Below are positions 11 through 45,412 of a stretch of DNA of 64,000 bases, piece by piece. Origin of the DNA: Pirellulales bacterium. GTDB taxonomy: Bacteria > Planctomycetota > Planctomycetia > Pirellulales > JAEUIK01. Numbering within the stretch: the first letter of the stretch is position 1; every line of letters starts with the position of its first letter. Under the pieces are notes generated by a model. The model was not told the DNA's origin. It searched no databases and saw only the letters and a program-made list of their open reading frames with translations. A program made the translations under genes and the position numbers. The stretch is from assembly GCA_019694435.1 (NCBI GenBank), contig JAIBBZ010000031.1:1-64000 (forward strand), read 5' to 3'.

Positions 11-83
11 CTCCCCGACAAGGACTCGAACCTTGGACCTAGCGGTTAACAGCCGCTTGCTCTACCAACTGAGCTATCGGGGA
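11..83 (-). tRNA. tRNA-Asn (GTT anticodon)
   Basis: The reverse strand folds as a 73-nt cloverleaf. The 7-bp acceptor stem pairs TCCCCGA with TCGGGGA and is followed by discriminator G. The D-arm contains AGCTCAGTTGGTAGAGC, the anticodon loop is CTGTTAA and the T-loop is GTTCGAGTC. The anticodon GTT reads asparagine codons. CCA is not encoded. Confidence 0.96.
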
Positions 84-208
84 ATCCGGCAGGCCGCCAG
101 GGTGATCCCCCGGCGGGCACTTCCAAGCCTCGTATGGTATCGCAGCCTGTGCGGGCCAGCAAGGCGACCGCACGGCGGCGCGGGGCCGAGGGCGAGGTCC
201 GCGGCGCG

Positions 209-41351: not shown

Positions 41352-41588
41352 TCAGATGACCTGTTGAAAGCAGCCCCGGCCGGCCTGGCAATTCGGCCGA
41401 TCAACCAACTGATCATCGGGGCCCAGGACGTTTTGCGTGCGATTGCACCAGCAATAGCCGTCGCCCATCGAGCCTTCCTGAGTCGGGTCGACCAGCCCGG
41501 TGACGTACATCCCCTTGGAGCGGAGATGCAGGCAGGCGGGTCCACGAACCTCGGCCCCATCGGCATCGACCTGTTTGCGGTAGACCAT
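41352..41588 (-). CDS. Small cysteine-rich protein at the end of the oxidoreductase operon
   Basis: A 78-aa cytoplasmic-type protein with five cysteines (about residues 19, 46, 48, 67 and 73) in the pattern GPACLHL, GYCWCNRTQ, PNCQAGRGCF. The arrangement suggests a metal or Fe-S site. It begins just 2 bp after the FAD-subunit stop, so it is the fourth gene of the operon, and it ends before a bidirectional terminator. The PaoD/XdhC-type maturation gene that normally accompanies this enzyme class is absent here. I do not recognise the family; a role tied to this oxidoreductase is inferred from position only. Confidence 0.7.
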   Translation of the reverse strand: MVYRKQVDADGAEVRGPACLHLRSKGMYVTGLVDPTQEGSMGDGYCWCNRTQNVLGPDDQLVDRPNCQAGRGCFQQVI

Positions 41589-41590
41589 GG

Positions 41591-42580
41591 TCAGAATCCT
41601 CCCGTTTGCAGGCCGAAGGCCAGAAGCGCGGCACGTTCGACGGCCACGCGCGCGAGTTGCACCTTGTAACGATTCCCCGGCAGCGGCGTCGCCTCGCGCA
41701 CGGCAGCCTCGCCGGCAGCGGCGGCCGCTTCGCGCGACGCCAACTGGCCCAGCAGAACATTCGCCGCCAGGCTCGAAACCCACGGCACCGGCGCGACCTG
41801 TCCGAGCACCACGCGGGCCGCGATGATCCGCCCGGCTTTGAGTTGGACGGCGGCCGCGGCCGAGGCCAGCGGATAGTCGGGCCCGGCGCCCTGACGCACC
41901 TCGTAGGTCGCGTTCGCCGGCACGACATCGCGCGGGATCGTGATGTGGGTCAGGACTTGATTGGGCAGCAGCACCGTTTCACGCTGCTGCTCGTCGCGCG
42001 GCGTGCGATACAGCGCGTCGAGTGGGAACTGCGCTTCATCTTCGGGCCCTGGCCCGACGACGCGTACCTTGGCGCCCAGGGCCATCAAGGCTGGGGCCAA
42101 GCGCGAGCCTGCACAGAACTTCGCGGGTCCAGCGTTGCCAAAAATCGCGTGATACCGGTGATCGCCTTCGGCCACGAGCCGGCCGTTCTGGGCGAGATAG
42201 CCGTGACCATTGCGGAAGTACCAGCACCGCGGACGCTGGCAAAGCTCGCCGCCGAGCGTCCCTTGGGCTTGCAACTGGAGGCTGCTGATCCCGCGGATGG
42301 CCTGTTTGATCGAGGGGAAATCGTCGAGGTCCGGGCTGTCGAGCAGATCGCTGAGCGAGGTCGTAGCCCCGATCCGCACCGATTGCGAGTCGGCCTCGAC
42401 GCCGCGCAGGCTCGGCACGTCCATGATGTTCACGACCCGGCTGGGCGTGACCACCATCTTGTACATCAGACCGACCAGGTCGGTGCCGCCGGCGAGGATT
42501 TCGCTTTCACCCCAGCGGGATGAAAGCAATCCGGCGATCTCGCTTTCGCGGCGCGGAGCCGCGTATTCAAAGGCTTTCAT
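41591..42580 (-). CDS. FAD-binding subunit of xanthine-oxidase-family oxidoreductase (PaoB-like)
   Basis: A 329-aa medium subunit. The flavin pyrophosphate motif is ILAGGTDLVGLMYK (AGGTDL 30-35); the second is TLGGELCQRPRCWYFRNG. The cysteines C114, C119 and C156 correspond to the insertion that holds a [4Fe-4S] cluster in PaoB/YagS, although one ligand cannot be placed. The C-terminal CO-dehydrogenase flavoprotein domain (VPWVSSLAANVLLGQ) is present. The ATG shares an A with the stop of the large-subunit gene, so translation is coupled. It would pass electrons from the small subunit's cluster to an acceptor. Confidence 0.9.
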   Translation of the reverse strand: MKAFEYAAPRRESEIAGLLSSRWGESEILAGGTDLVGLMYKMVVTPSRVVNIMDVPSLRGVEADSQSVRIGATTSLSDLLDSPDLDDFPSIKQAIRGISSLQLQAQGTLGGELCQRPRCWYFRNGHGYLAQNGRLVAEGDHRYHAIFGNAGPAKFCAGSRLAPALMALGAKVRVVGPGPEDEAQFPLDALYRTPRDEQQRETVLLPNQVLTHITIPRDVVPANATYEVRQGAGPDYPLASAAAAVQLKAGRIIAARVVLGQVAPVPWVSSLAANVLLGQLASREAAAAAGEAAVREATPLPGNRYKVQLARVAVERAALLAFGLQTGGF

Positions 42581-44796
42581 CAGGAAGCGCTCCCTTCGAC
42601 CAGGGCCTTGTGTTCCAGCGACGCGAGGACACGCTGCGGCGTCAGCGGCAGCACCGGCACCCGCACGCCCAGCGCGTTGCATACGGCGTTCGAGATGGCT
42701 GCGCCAGGAGAGATCACCGGAGGCTCGCCCAGTCCGATCACGCCGCGGTTGTACTCGCTTTCCGGCTCGTACATCTCGATGACGATCTCGCCGATGTCGC
42801 CCAACCGCGGCAAGCGATAATCGCTCAGCTCAGCGTTGACGAACGCGCCGGTGCGGCCGTCCATGATCCGTTCTTCGAACAGGGCATACGCGATGCCCAT
42901 GATGACGGCGCCGTAAATCTGGCTCTCGGCCGTCTGCCGATTGACGATCAGGCCCATGTCCTGCACGGCCACGAATTTCTTCATCTGGACGATGCCGGTG
43001 GCCTTGTCGACGGCCACTTCGGCCATCTGCACGCCACCGACCAGCGTGCTCGACAACGGGCTCTTGGCCCCCTGTTTGAACTCGCCTTTCACTTCCAATG
43101 GGTTCATGCCCAACAGGCTGCACGCCTCTTTCCAGCTCAGGCTCTTGCCCGGGTCGCCTACGACTTGGATGCGGCCTTCTTTGGCCTCGAGCTCTGCCGA
43201 CTGCACGCCGAGCTTCGTGGCGACCAGCTCGCAGAGTTTGCGCAGGGCGTCTTGCGAGGCCCGGCGATTCGACTCGGAGACGCCGCCGATCGTGGTGCTG
43301 CCGCCCGACGGACCGCTTTGCGGATAGGCCGAGCTGCCGATGTTGACCTTGATGGCGTTGACCGGCAGGCCAAACGTCTCGGCCACCACGACGGCGATGG
43401 CCGTGCGGGTGCCGGTGCCCAGGTCCTGGCTACCGAGCGAGGTTTCCACGCCGCCGTCGGGATGGATGCGTACCACGCAGGTCGAAGCGTGGCCCGCCCC
43501 GCCCCAGGTGTGCAGCGCCAGGCCCAGGCCCGTGACGATCGAGCCGTCTTGCGGCCCCTTGCCGTGCGGATGCCATTTGGCCTTCCAGTCCATCAGCTTG
43601 GCAGCGATTTCCATTTCGGCCCGATAGACGTCTTCCTTGCCGTTGCGGACCGAAGCCAGATTGGCCAGGAACACGTCGTAACTGTCCTTGCCGAGCTTCA
43701 TGGCGACGTCGTCGTAGGCCGTTTGCGTCATCGCGCAGGCCTGCGGATGGTTGGGCGCGCGCCAGGCCCGGCTGGGGCCCGTGTTGGTCTTGATGGCTGT
43801 GGCCACGCGACGTCGGTTGGGCGGATCGAAAACATAGGGGATCTCGCCTTGCGAGACTCCGCCGCCCCCGGGCCCACCGGTACCCCAGTGGTGCGAGTCC
43901 CACACCTTGACCACGCCGTTGGCGTCGGCGCCGACGCGGGCCTTGAGATAGCCCGAGGGCCGCGAGCCGGCCGACTTGAGCTCCAGGTCGCGGTCGAGCA
44001 TCAGCTTGACGGGCCGGCCGGTCTCCTTCGCGATCTTGGCACAGACGACGCCCCAGGAATCGGCGGCGAACTTGCTGCCGAAACCGCCGCCGATGAAGTC
44101 GCAGTGGACCGTGACGTCGTCGGCCGTGATGCCCAGCGGCGAGGCGAACTGGCCCGCGGTGCCCGAGACGTTTTGCGTCGACAGGTGGGCCAGCAGCTTG
44201 CCGTCTTTCCATTCGCACGTCGAACCGTGCGTTTCGAGACACATGTGCGTGATCGCGGCGATGCCGTAGTAGCCATCGACCACGACGGCCGACTCCTTCA
44301 GCAGCCGGTCGATCTCTTCGTCTTCGAACTTGTCTTCGTCGGCGCCTTCGGCGGGCTCTTTTTCGAGCTGCACGTTGCGGCCGGCGCTCTTGGCCACTCC
44401 GGCGGCCTCGGCCGCGGCGAGATGTTCGTCGAGGACGAAATGCGGCTCGACGGCGTACTTGACTTCAATCGCAGCCAGGCCCTCGGCTGCGGCGCCGTCG
44501 GAATCGGCCGCGACGACGGCGACCAGATCGCCTTCCCAGCGGATTTCGTTGCCCGGTTCTTTGAGCGCCTCGACGTGCCGCACGCCCGGCACTTTCAGCG
44601 CCGGTGACGTGTCGATCGACACGACTTTGCACGACGCGTGCGGGCAGCCCAATGCACGGGCAAACAGCATCTTGTCGCGCATAATGTCGTAGGCATACTT
44701 CGCGGCGCCGCTGGCCTTGGCCACGCCGTCGAGACGGTCGTGTTCTTTGCCCAGCACCGAGGCGGTGCCGTACTTGGGCCAATTATATTCAGCCAT
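42580..44796 (-). CDS. Molybdopterin-binding large subunit (PaoC/YagR-like)
   Basis: A 738-aa catalytic subunit of a xanthine-oxidase-family hydroxylase. N-terminal substrate channel segment RLDGVAKASGAAKYAYD is followed by DFIGGGFGSKF, LGTGTRTAIA and the terminal GLGEPPVISPGAAISN, which holds the catalytic Glu. The Arg-containing loop is RAWRAPNHPQ. The length fits PaoC and CoxL-like proteins. The N-terminus overlaps the small-subunit gene by 8 bp. The probable substrates are aldehydes or heteroaromatics. The CoxL active-site Cys motif is absent, so CO dehydrogenase activity is unlikely. Confidence 0.92.
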   Translation of the reverse strand: MAEYNWPKYGTASVLGKEHDRLDGVAKASGAAKYAYDIMRDKMLFARALGCPHASCKVVSIDTSPALKVPGVRHVEALKEPGNEIRWEGDLVAVVAADSDGAAAEGLAAIEVKYAVEPHFVLDEHLAAAEAAGVAKSAGRNVQLEKEPAEGADEDKFEDEEIDRLLKESAVVVDGYYGIAAITHMCLETHGSTCEWKDGKLLAHLSTQNVSGTAGQFASPLGITADDVTVHCDFIGGGFGSKFAADSWGVVCAKIAKETGRPVKLMLDRDLELKSAGSRPSGYLKARVGADANGVVKVWDSHHWGTGGPGGGGVSQGEIPYVFDPPNRRRVATAIKTNTGPSRAWRAPNHPQACAMTQTAYDDVAMKLGKDSYDVFLANLASVRNGKEDVYRAEMEIAAKLMDWKAKWHPHGKGPQDGSIVTGLGLALHTWGGAGHASTCVVRIHPDGGVETSLGSQDLGTGTRTAIAVVVAETFGLPVNAIKVNIGSSAYPQSGPSGGSTTIGGVSESNRRASQDALRKLCELVATKLGVQSAELEAKEGRIQVVGDPGKSLSWKEACSLLGMNPLEVKGEFKQGAKSPLSSTLVGGVQMAEVAVDKATGIVQMKKFVAVQDMGLIVNRQTAESQIYGAVIMGIAYALFEERIMDGRTGAFVNAELSDYRLPRLGDIGEIVIEMYEPESEYNRGVIGLGEPPVISPGAAISNAVCNALGVRVPVLPLTPQRVLASLEHKALVEGSAS

Positions 44797-45412
44797 TGCC
44801 GCCTCCCTTCACCACCTCGAGGGCGGCCTGAATCACGTTGGCATAGGTGCCGCAGCGGCAGAGATTGCCGTTGAGGCCTGCGCGAATGTCGGCTTCGGTC
44901 GCATTTGGATGCTTGTCGAGAAACGCCCGGACAGCCACGACGAAACCCGGGGTGCAGAACCCGCACTGCATGCCGTCGTGGTGCACAAAGGCCTGCACGA
45001 CCGCGTCGGGCTGGTCGCCGCCGAGGCTTTCGACCGTGCGAATCTTCTTGCCCGCGCAGGTGATCGCCAGCGTGGTCGAAGCGGAAACCGTCTTGCCGTC
45101 GACCCATACGGTACTGCCGCCGGTGACTCCCTGGTTGCTGACCGGCTTGCAGCCGGACAAGTTCAACTGGTACCGCAAGACTTCCATCAGGGTCGTCCGC
45201 GGTTCGATCTCGACGGGGCAGTCCTGACCGTTGACCGACAGCACCAGCTTGTGCATGCCGGGACCGACGATCGGGGTCTCCTGGTCTGACTCGGCGCCCA
45301 TGACCGGCTGCGCAACGAGGGCCGTCGCAGCCGCAGCTGCGCCTGAGCCCTTGAGAAACGCGCGGCGATGGAAACCGGACGACGACGATTGGTCGTGTCC
45401 ACCTGTGCTCAT
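44789..45412 (-). CDS. Tat-exported iron-sulphur small subunit with degenerate N-terminal cluster
   Basis: A 207-aa PaoA/YagT-like subunit. The Tat signal HRRAFLKGSGAAAAATALV implies periplasmic export of the whole folded enzyme. The distal [2Fe-2S] cluster is intact: C150 and C153 in MQCGFC, and C185 and C187 in LCRCGTY. The proximal plant-ferredoxin-type cluster is not. Aligning GCKPVSNQGVTGGSTVWVDG with family members places Ser92, Thr97, Ser100 and Ser112 at the four cysteine positions. Two non-canonical cysteines (C88, C119) are nearby. It is the first gene of the operon. Confidence 0.9.
   Translation of the reverse strand: MSTGGHDQSSSSGFHRRAFLKGSGAAAAATALVAQPVMGAESDQETPIVGPGMHKLVLSVNGQDCPVEIEPRTTLMEVLRYQLNLSGCKPVSNQGVTGGSTVWVDGKTVSASTTLAITCAGKKIRTVESLGGDQPDAVVQAFVHHDGMQCGFCTPGFVVAVRAFLDKHPNATEADIRAGLNGNLCRCGTYANVIQAALEVVKGGGNG

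Follow-up and report, generated by a model that had tools for sequence, protein, structure and literature searches.

A PaoABC-like molybdenum hydroxylase operon of a Pirellulales bacterium with a small subunit predicted to lack Fe/S cluster II

Introduction

In the textbook view of xanthine oxidase-type enzymes, electrons pass along the chain Mo - Fe/S I - Fe/S II - (FAD), and some members of the family are without FAD altogether. The small subunits CoxS and CutS and the Fe/S domain of xanthine oxidase share one two-domain architecture, in which both clusters are present. The periplasmic aldehyde oxidoreductase PaoABC of E. coli (5g5g) consists of three subunits, of which the small one, PaoA, bears a Tat leader and contains both [2Fe-2S] clusters; the cysteines of a [4Fe-4S] cluster are found in PaoB. 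A shortened redox chain is represented in the family by the D. gigas aldehyde oxidoreductase, which contains both clusters and no FAD (PMC3958847). In another enzyme family, the N-terminal beta-grasp domain of an L-proline dehydrogenase-type oxidoreductase (1Y56) lost its cluster cysteines, while the domain itself was kept (PMC1949818).

Here we describe a locus of a Pirellulales bacterium in which, by contrast to the D. gigas enzyme, the FAD subunit is kept and the site of the adjoining cluster is lost. The window, i.e. the whole stretch of 64,000 nucleotides that was analyzed, belongs to contig 31 of a genome of 6.1 Mb (97.9% complete).

Operon and genome context

The locus comprises four genes, all on the minus strand, in the order small subunit, large subunit, FAD subunit, and a small protein termed CWC:

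44789..45412 (-), small (Fe/S) subunit; ATG start, ORF of 207 aa; aligned to CutS, PaoA and CoxS
42580..44796 (-), molybdopterin-binding large subunit, PaoC-like, 738 aa; Pfam MoCoBD_1/2, best PDB match PaoC
41591..42580 (-), FAD subunit, PaoB-like, 329 aa; Pfam FAD_binding_5 and CO_deh_flav_C, aligned to PaoB
41352..41588 (-), fourth operon gene, CWC protein, 78 aa; invariant C19, C48, C67 and C73

The large subunit was matched in Pfam by MoCoBD_1, MoCoBD_2 and Ald_Xan_dh_C, and PaoC is its best match over the full length among PDB entries; the FAD subunit was matched by FAD_binding_5 (PF00941; E 2.9e-27), and its closest solved relatives are the medium subunit of aldehyde oxidase and PaoB. 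For the small subunit, the best PDB match is CutS (E 1.7e-33). The equivalog cut-offs of NCBIfam were missed for PaoA (135.6 bits vs 322) and for PaoC (301.7 vs 1180). Of the features of the xanthine oxidase family, the molybdenum-cofactor large subunit with its catalytic Glu, the Fer2_2 domain with four cysteines, and the FAD loops are present; the plant-ferredoxin-type domain, which has four cysteines in the family, can be aligned and its cluster site is absent. The genome also encodes TatC and a MoaA domain, and on contig 12 a second, canonical small subunit with eight of eight cysteines. The complex is best explained as a member of the xanthine oxidase family, a molybdenum hydroxylase exported by the Tat pathway and predicted to be PaoABC-like in its molybdenum-cofactor, Fe/S and FAD subunits.

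PaoABC shares with this complex the three-subunit make-up and the Tat leader, but differs in that no fourth gene corresponds to the CWC gene that follows here. Furthermore, Arg440 of PaoC, which stands beside the catalytic Glu and which we take to be residue 440 on the strength of the His in entry 5g5h, aligns with W431 of the window's large subunit. W431 is invariant across the family alignment, and the substrate range therefore probably differs from that of PaoABC. Closer in organization are planctomycete operons (e.g. L131, L133, L149 and L170) with the same gene order, CWC included, and with related large and FAD subunits; these differ in that all four Fe/S II cysteines are kept.

Small subunit

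The features of the small subunit are, by residue or by position:

residues 14-32 (-), Tat signal; Pfam TAT_signal (PF10518), over the cut-off
residues about 54-125 (-), plant-ferredoxin-type domain, predicted clusterless; alignment
45137..45139 (-), Ser92, first lost Fe/S II ligand; codon AGC, alignment
45122..45124 (-), Thr97, second lost Fe/S II ligand; codon ACC, alignment
45113..45115 (-), Ser100, third lost Fe/S II ligand; codon AGT, alignment
45077..45079 (-), Ser112, fourth lost Fe/S II ligand; codon TCG, alignment
44852..44965 (-), Fe/S I ligand stretch with C150, C153, C185 and C187; kept in 49/49 aligned rows

A reading of the DNA alone had proposed that the four cysteines of the plant-ferredoxin-type cluster are replaced by Ser92, Thr97, Ser100 and Ser112 while the distal cluster is intact, and both parts were borne out. 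In an alignment with solved subunits of the CoxS/CutS/PaoA type, the four residues occupy the ligand columns of the C-x4-C-x2-C-x11-C pattern, and their codons specify Ser and Thr; the codons 150, 153, 185 and 187 are TGC (Cys) throughout. The lost site is that of Fe/S II, the plant-ferredoxin-type [2Fe-2S] cluster adjoining FAD, which PaoA possesses. In the Pfam scan of the small subunit the Fer2_2 domain (PF01799) was matched (E 3.6e-26), and the plant-type Fer2 domain was not. Two further cysteines that might have served as shifted ligands were excluded: C88 stands in a non-ligand column where 46 of the 48 relatives have Ala, and the column of the small subunit's C119, likewise not a ligand column, is filled by Cys in several relatives with a full set of four ligands. 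The small subunit thus appears truly to lack Fe/S cluster II and to carry Fe/S I only. R16 and R17 of the Tat leader are present in every aligned row that reaches that far.

Recurrence among relatives

Relatives were collected from a scan of GTDB genomes, one per species (84,980 species), with sampling in depth confined to Planctomycetota. The scan yielded 48 relatives, planctomycetes to the extent that their titles tell (three titles give 'bacterium' only). The Fe/S II ligands are absent in all relatives with the columns covered, with a maximum of one Cys at one column, and the Fe/S I cysteines are kept in all of them. Recurrence of the substitutions among planctomycete relatives had been expected and was thereby confirmed, and since 48 independently sequenced relatives share the loss, a sequencing or frameshift error does not account for it. 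As a separate observation, one small subunit of the four-cysteine type (L229, genome G637) has a gap in its ligand loop (C-CC), an oddity suggestive of misassembly or an indel.

The commonest loop in the window's clade is PVSxDGSSGASTV, and Ser stands at the four ligand columns in 44, 43, 40 and 32 of 48 rows, respectively. The columns of the relatives also hold A, G, N, D, E, K, V or a single C, in patterns including AVSG, SAAD, SSAA, KDDG, DADG, GDDG and EADN. In family f5 of the same class, close relatives carry either four ligand cysteines or none, the latter with KDDG, DDDG, EDDS, GDDG, QDDG, SDDS, DSDS or DADG.

These residues bear on the proposal that a [2Fe-2S] cluster is held by the oxygens of Ser and Thr (or Asp), for which the prevalence of Ser in the window's clade, and the recurrence of Asp at columns 97 and 100 in family f5, might be taken to speak. 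However, close relatives whose subunits are conserved in other respects have Ala, Gly, Asn, Lys or Val at these columns, which makes such ligation very unlikely, and we know of no protein with an all-oxygen [2Fe-2S] site; we regard the proposal as highly improbable.

Number of losses

In a tree built from 113 rows of large and FAD subunits, six changes between the four-cysteine and the clusterless state were counted, at least four of which are forced by well-supported branches, and five changes were counted in a mixture-model tree of 26 rows; from such counts, loss is not distinguishable from a regain of the cysteines or a swap of small subunits. A single clade of the nine clusterless f5 rows was rejected, both with the large and FAD subunits (p-AU 0.0005) and with the small subunit minus the loop (p-AU 0.0017). 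Since a regain of four cysteines at once is unlikely, the changes are read as losses, and Fe/S II was probably lost several times. The loss in 1Y56, described as a single old one, differs in this respect from the repeated losses in the xanthine oxidase-type electron wire. The small-subunit tree joins some of the f5 losses to the window's clade, and Asp at column 100 is common to the f5 losses; exchange of small subunits between lineages is therefore possible.

Constraint on the remaining subunits

The column of the catalytic Glu691 in the large subunit holds Glu in 113 of 113 rows, and in the same alignment no large-subunit residues were found that are fixed differently in clusterless and four-cysteine enzymes. 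In the FAD subunit the FAD-loop residues G32, D34, T108 and G111 are kept. In a subclade of the relatives (L027-L029, L031, L038, L040-L043 and L046) T-x-V-G, or a sequence close to it, takes the place of T-x-G-G in the second FAD loop; FAD binding may be altered there.

Within the small subunit, clusterless lineages have an identity of 0.60 in the N-terminal domain vs 0.70 in the C-terminal domain (large-subunit identity, 0.59), while these domains are about equal in four-cysteine lineages (0.61 vs 0.63). The domain without the cluster thus appears slightly relaxed and not decaying, and its conservation points to a maintained protein rather than a relic. That the complex as a whole is decaying, or is a pseudo-enzyme, might be argued from the two cluster sites that are gone and from the slightly faster evolution of the clusterless domain; against this, the subunits are intact and conserved over many genera with the catalytic Glu column filled in every row, and we give decay very little credence.

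The second of these sites is the [4Fe-4S] site of the FAD subunit. Its cysteine columns, which we assigned from alignments with PaoB and aldehyde oxidase and, in part, by analogy with PaoABC and 4-hydroxybenzoyl-CoA reductase, are occupied in PaoB, but three of the four are lost in the window; C119 of the FAD subunit (codon 42224-42226, -) alone is kept and is invariant in 43/43 rows of the window's clade. The same single column is kept in family f5 and in the four-cysteine loci L067, L084, L087, L091, L131 and L133, and three or four of the cysteines persist among the distantly related operons of the phylum. All losses of Fe/S II that were seen fall in the part of the tree without a [4Fe-4S] site. 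The loss in the FAD subunit is thus the older of the two.

CWC protein

In 107 loci the CWC gene is the next gene after the FAD gene, and it was present in 93 of 392 genomes sampled across Planctomycetota. The 92 aligned members all share the cysteines C19, C48, C67 and C73 (two of the columns have one gap), which is suggestive of a metal or Fe-S site. No match to the family was obtained in the Pfam and NCBIfam scans, and a signal peptide of its own is not apparent. AlphaFold2 models reached a pLDDT of 59 with 39 sequences and of 80 with 92 diverse sequences, the latter a fairly confident small fold, for which Foldseek and VIA-align found no match in the PDB.

That another protein replaces the missing cluster had also been suggested from the DNA. 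In the sense of a newly acquired replacement this was rejected for CWC, since its gene accompanies operons with four-cysteine small subunits as well as clusterless ones; CWC is thus an ancestral part of the operon that did not arrive with the loss. What stands of the suggestion is that CWC may, as a relay, make Fe/S II dispensable. CWC was found in 25 of 25 clusterless vs 40 of 57 four-cysteine genomes of the class (L229 left out); the association with cluster loss has a Fisher p of 0.009 with one gapped row counted as a loss, and no significance on the tree with independent pairs. The clusterless L048 genome gave no CWC match.

In the lineage with SSAA at the ligand columns the operon is split, and CWC stays directly behind the FAD gene; in L047 and L049 (genomes G498 and G573) the small and large subunit genes are at one place and the FAD and CWC genes at another. 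A loss of the FAD gene from this lineage was considered and rejected, as whole-genome searches found the FAD-CWC pair elsewhere in the genome. Behind the operon, no recurrent neighbor gene other than CWC was found in the loci of the 48 relatives; upstream, outside the four-gene unit, recurrent neighbors occur in 22-25 of the 48 loci.

Electron route

With Fe/S II lost and the rest of the enzyme kept, electrons would leave by a different or slower route than that of the textbook chain. Of the readings offered by the sequence-only reading, the one left standing as a possibility is that electrons would bypass the missing cluster; the loss of [4Fe-4S] cysteines in the FAD subunit, the CWC gene and the repetition of the Fe/S II loss go beyond what that reading had noticed. 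We consider it moderately probable that the enzyme is a hydroxylase without Fe/S II in which electrons do not follow the customary path Fe/S I - Fe/S II - FAD, with CWC as the favored exit. The plant-ferredoxin-type domain would persist as a structural element, folded but with no cluster, electrons from the substrate would pass from Mo to Fe/S I, and from there they would exit by an unusual route: by CWC, which would serve next to the FAD subunit as a small metal or Fe-S relay, by slow direct tunneling to FAD, or by way of an external acceptor that docks near Fe/S I.

For direct tunneling from Fe/S I to FAD, the Moser-Dutton ruler, a generally known formula, gives roughly 1-600 per second at 18-20 Å edge to edge, about 1-37 per second at 20 Å, and 0.002-0.06 per second at 24.6 Å. 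A slow hydroxylase that takes this one long step, and whose flavin still passes the electrons on, would fit the rates at 20 Å and the conservation of the FAD subunit and its loops beside a clusterless small subunit. The geometry of Kdh speaks against it: the cofactors there lie in line with steps of 13.5, 13.8 and 10.8 Å (PMC8305194), so that Fe/S I and FAD would be ~25 Å apart between the points measured if Fe/S II is missing, and most rates in the range are slow. Such tunneling also offers no selective reason for repeated loss of the cluster, and we regard it as possible, on the unlikely side.

An external periplasmic acceptor near Fe/S I, e.g. a c-type cytochrome, would leave the FAD subunit as a structural part, or with FAD that does not turn over. 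The Tat signal on the small subunit is consistent with such an acceptor, as are the D. gigas aldehyde oxidoreductase, a family member that works without an FAD domain, and PaoABC, whose own acceptor is unknown (PMC3958847). However, CWC is the only recurrent neighbor found behind the operon, and the FAD gene is retained even in split operons; we rate an external acceptor as rather unlikely.

CWC as the relay is slightly favored over these routes, since no other further part is both rich in cysteine and conserved, and since CWC stays with the FAD gene; taken by itself this route is tentative, and CWC is a lead, a candidate relay. A more far-reaching version, in which CWC would be a new small Fe-S or metal electron carrier or exit subunit that takes electrons from Fe/S I or FAD, and that removed the need first for the [4Fe-4S] cluster and later for Fe/S II, so that Fe/S II was lost repeatedly, we put forward as speculative and doubtful.

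Conclusion

Ferredoxin-type domains without cysteines are already known from elsewhere (PMC1949818), as are family members without FAD; in the open-licence literature searched, we found no report of a xanthine oxidase-type enzyme with FAD and repeated loss of the adjoining cluster. In the enzymes described here the rule of the Mo - Fe/S I - Fe/S II - (FAD) chain would fail while FAD is retained. Their close relatives with and without Fe/S II form a natural set for testing which cofactors the electrons need, and the same set bears on the reach of tunneling and on the role of the four-cysteine CWC family.
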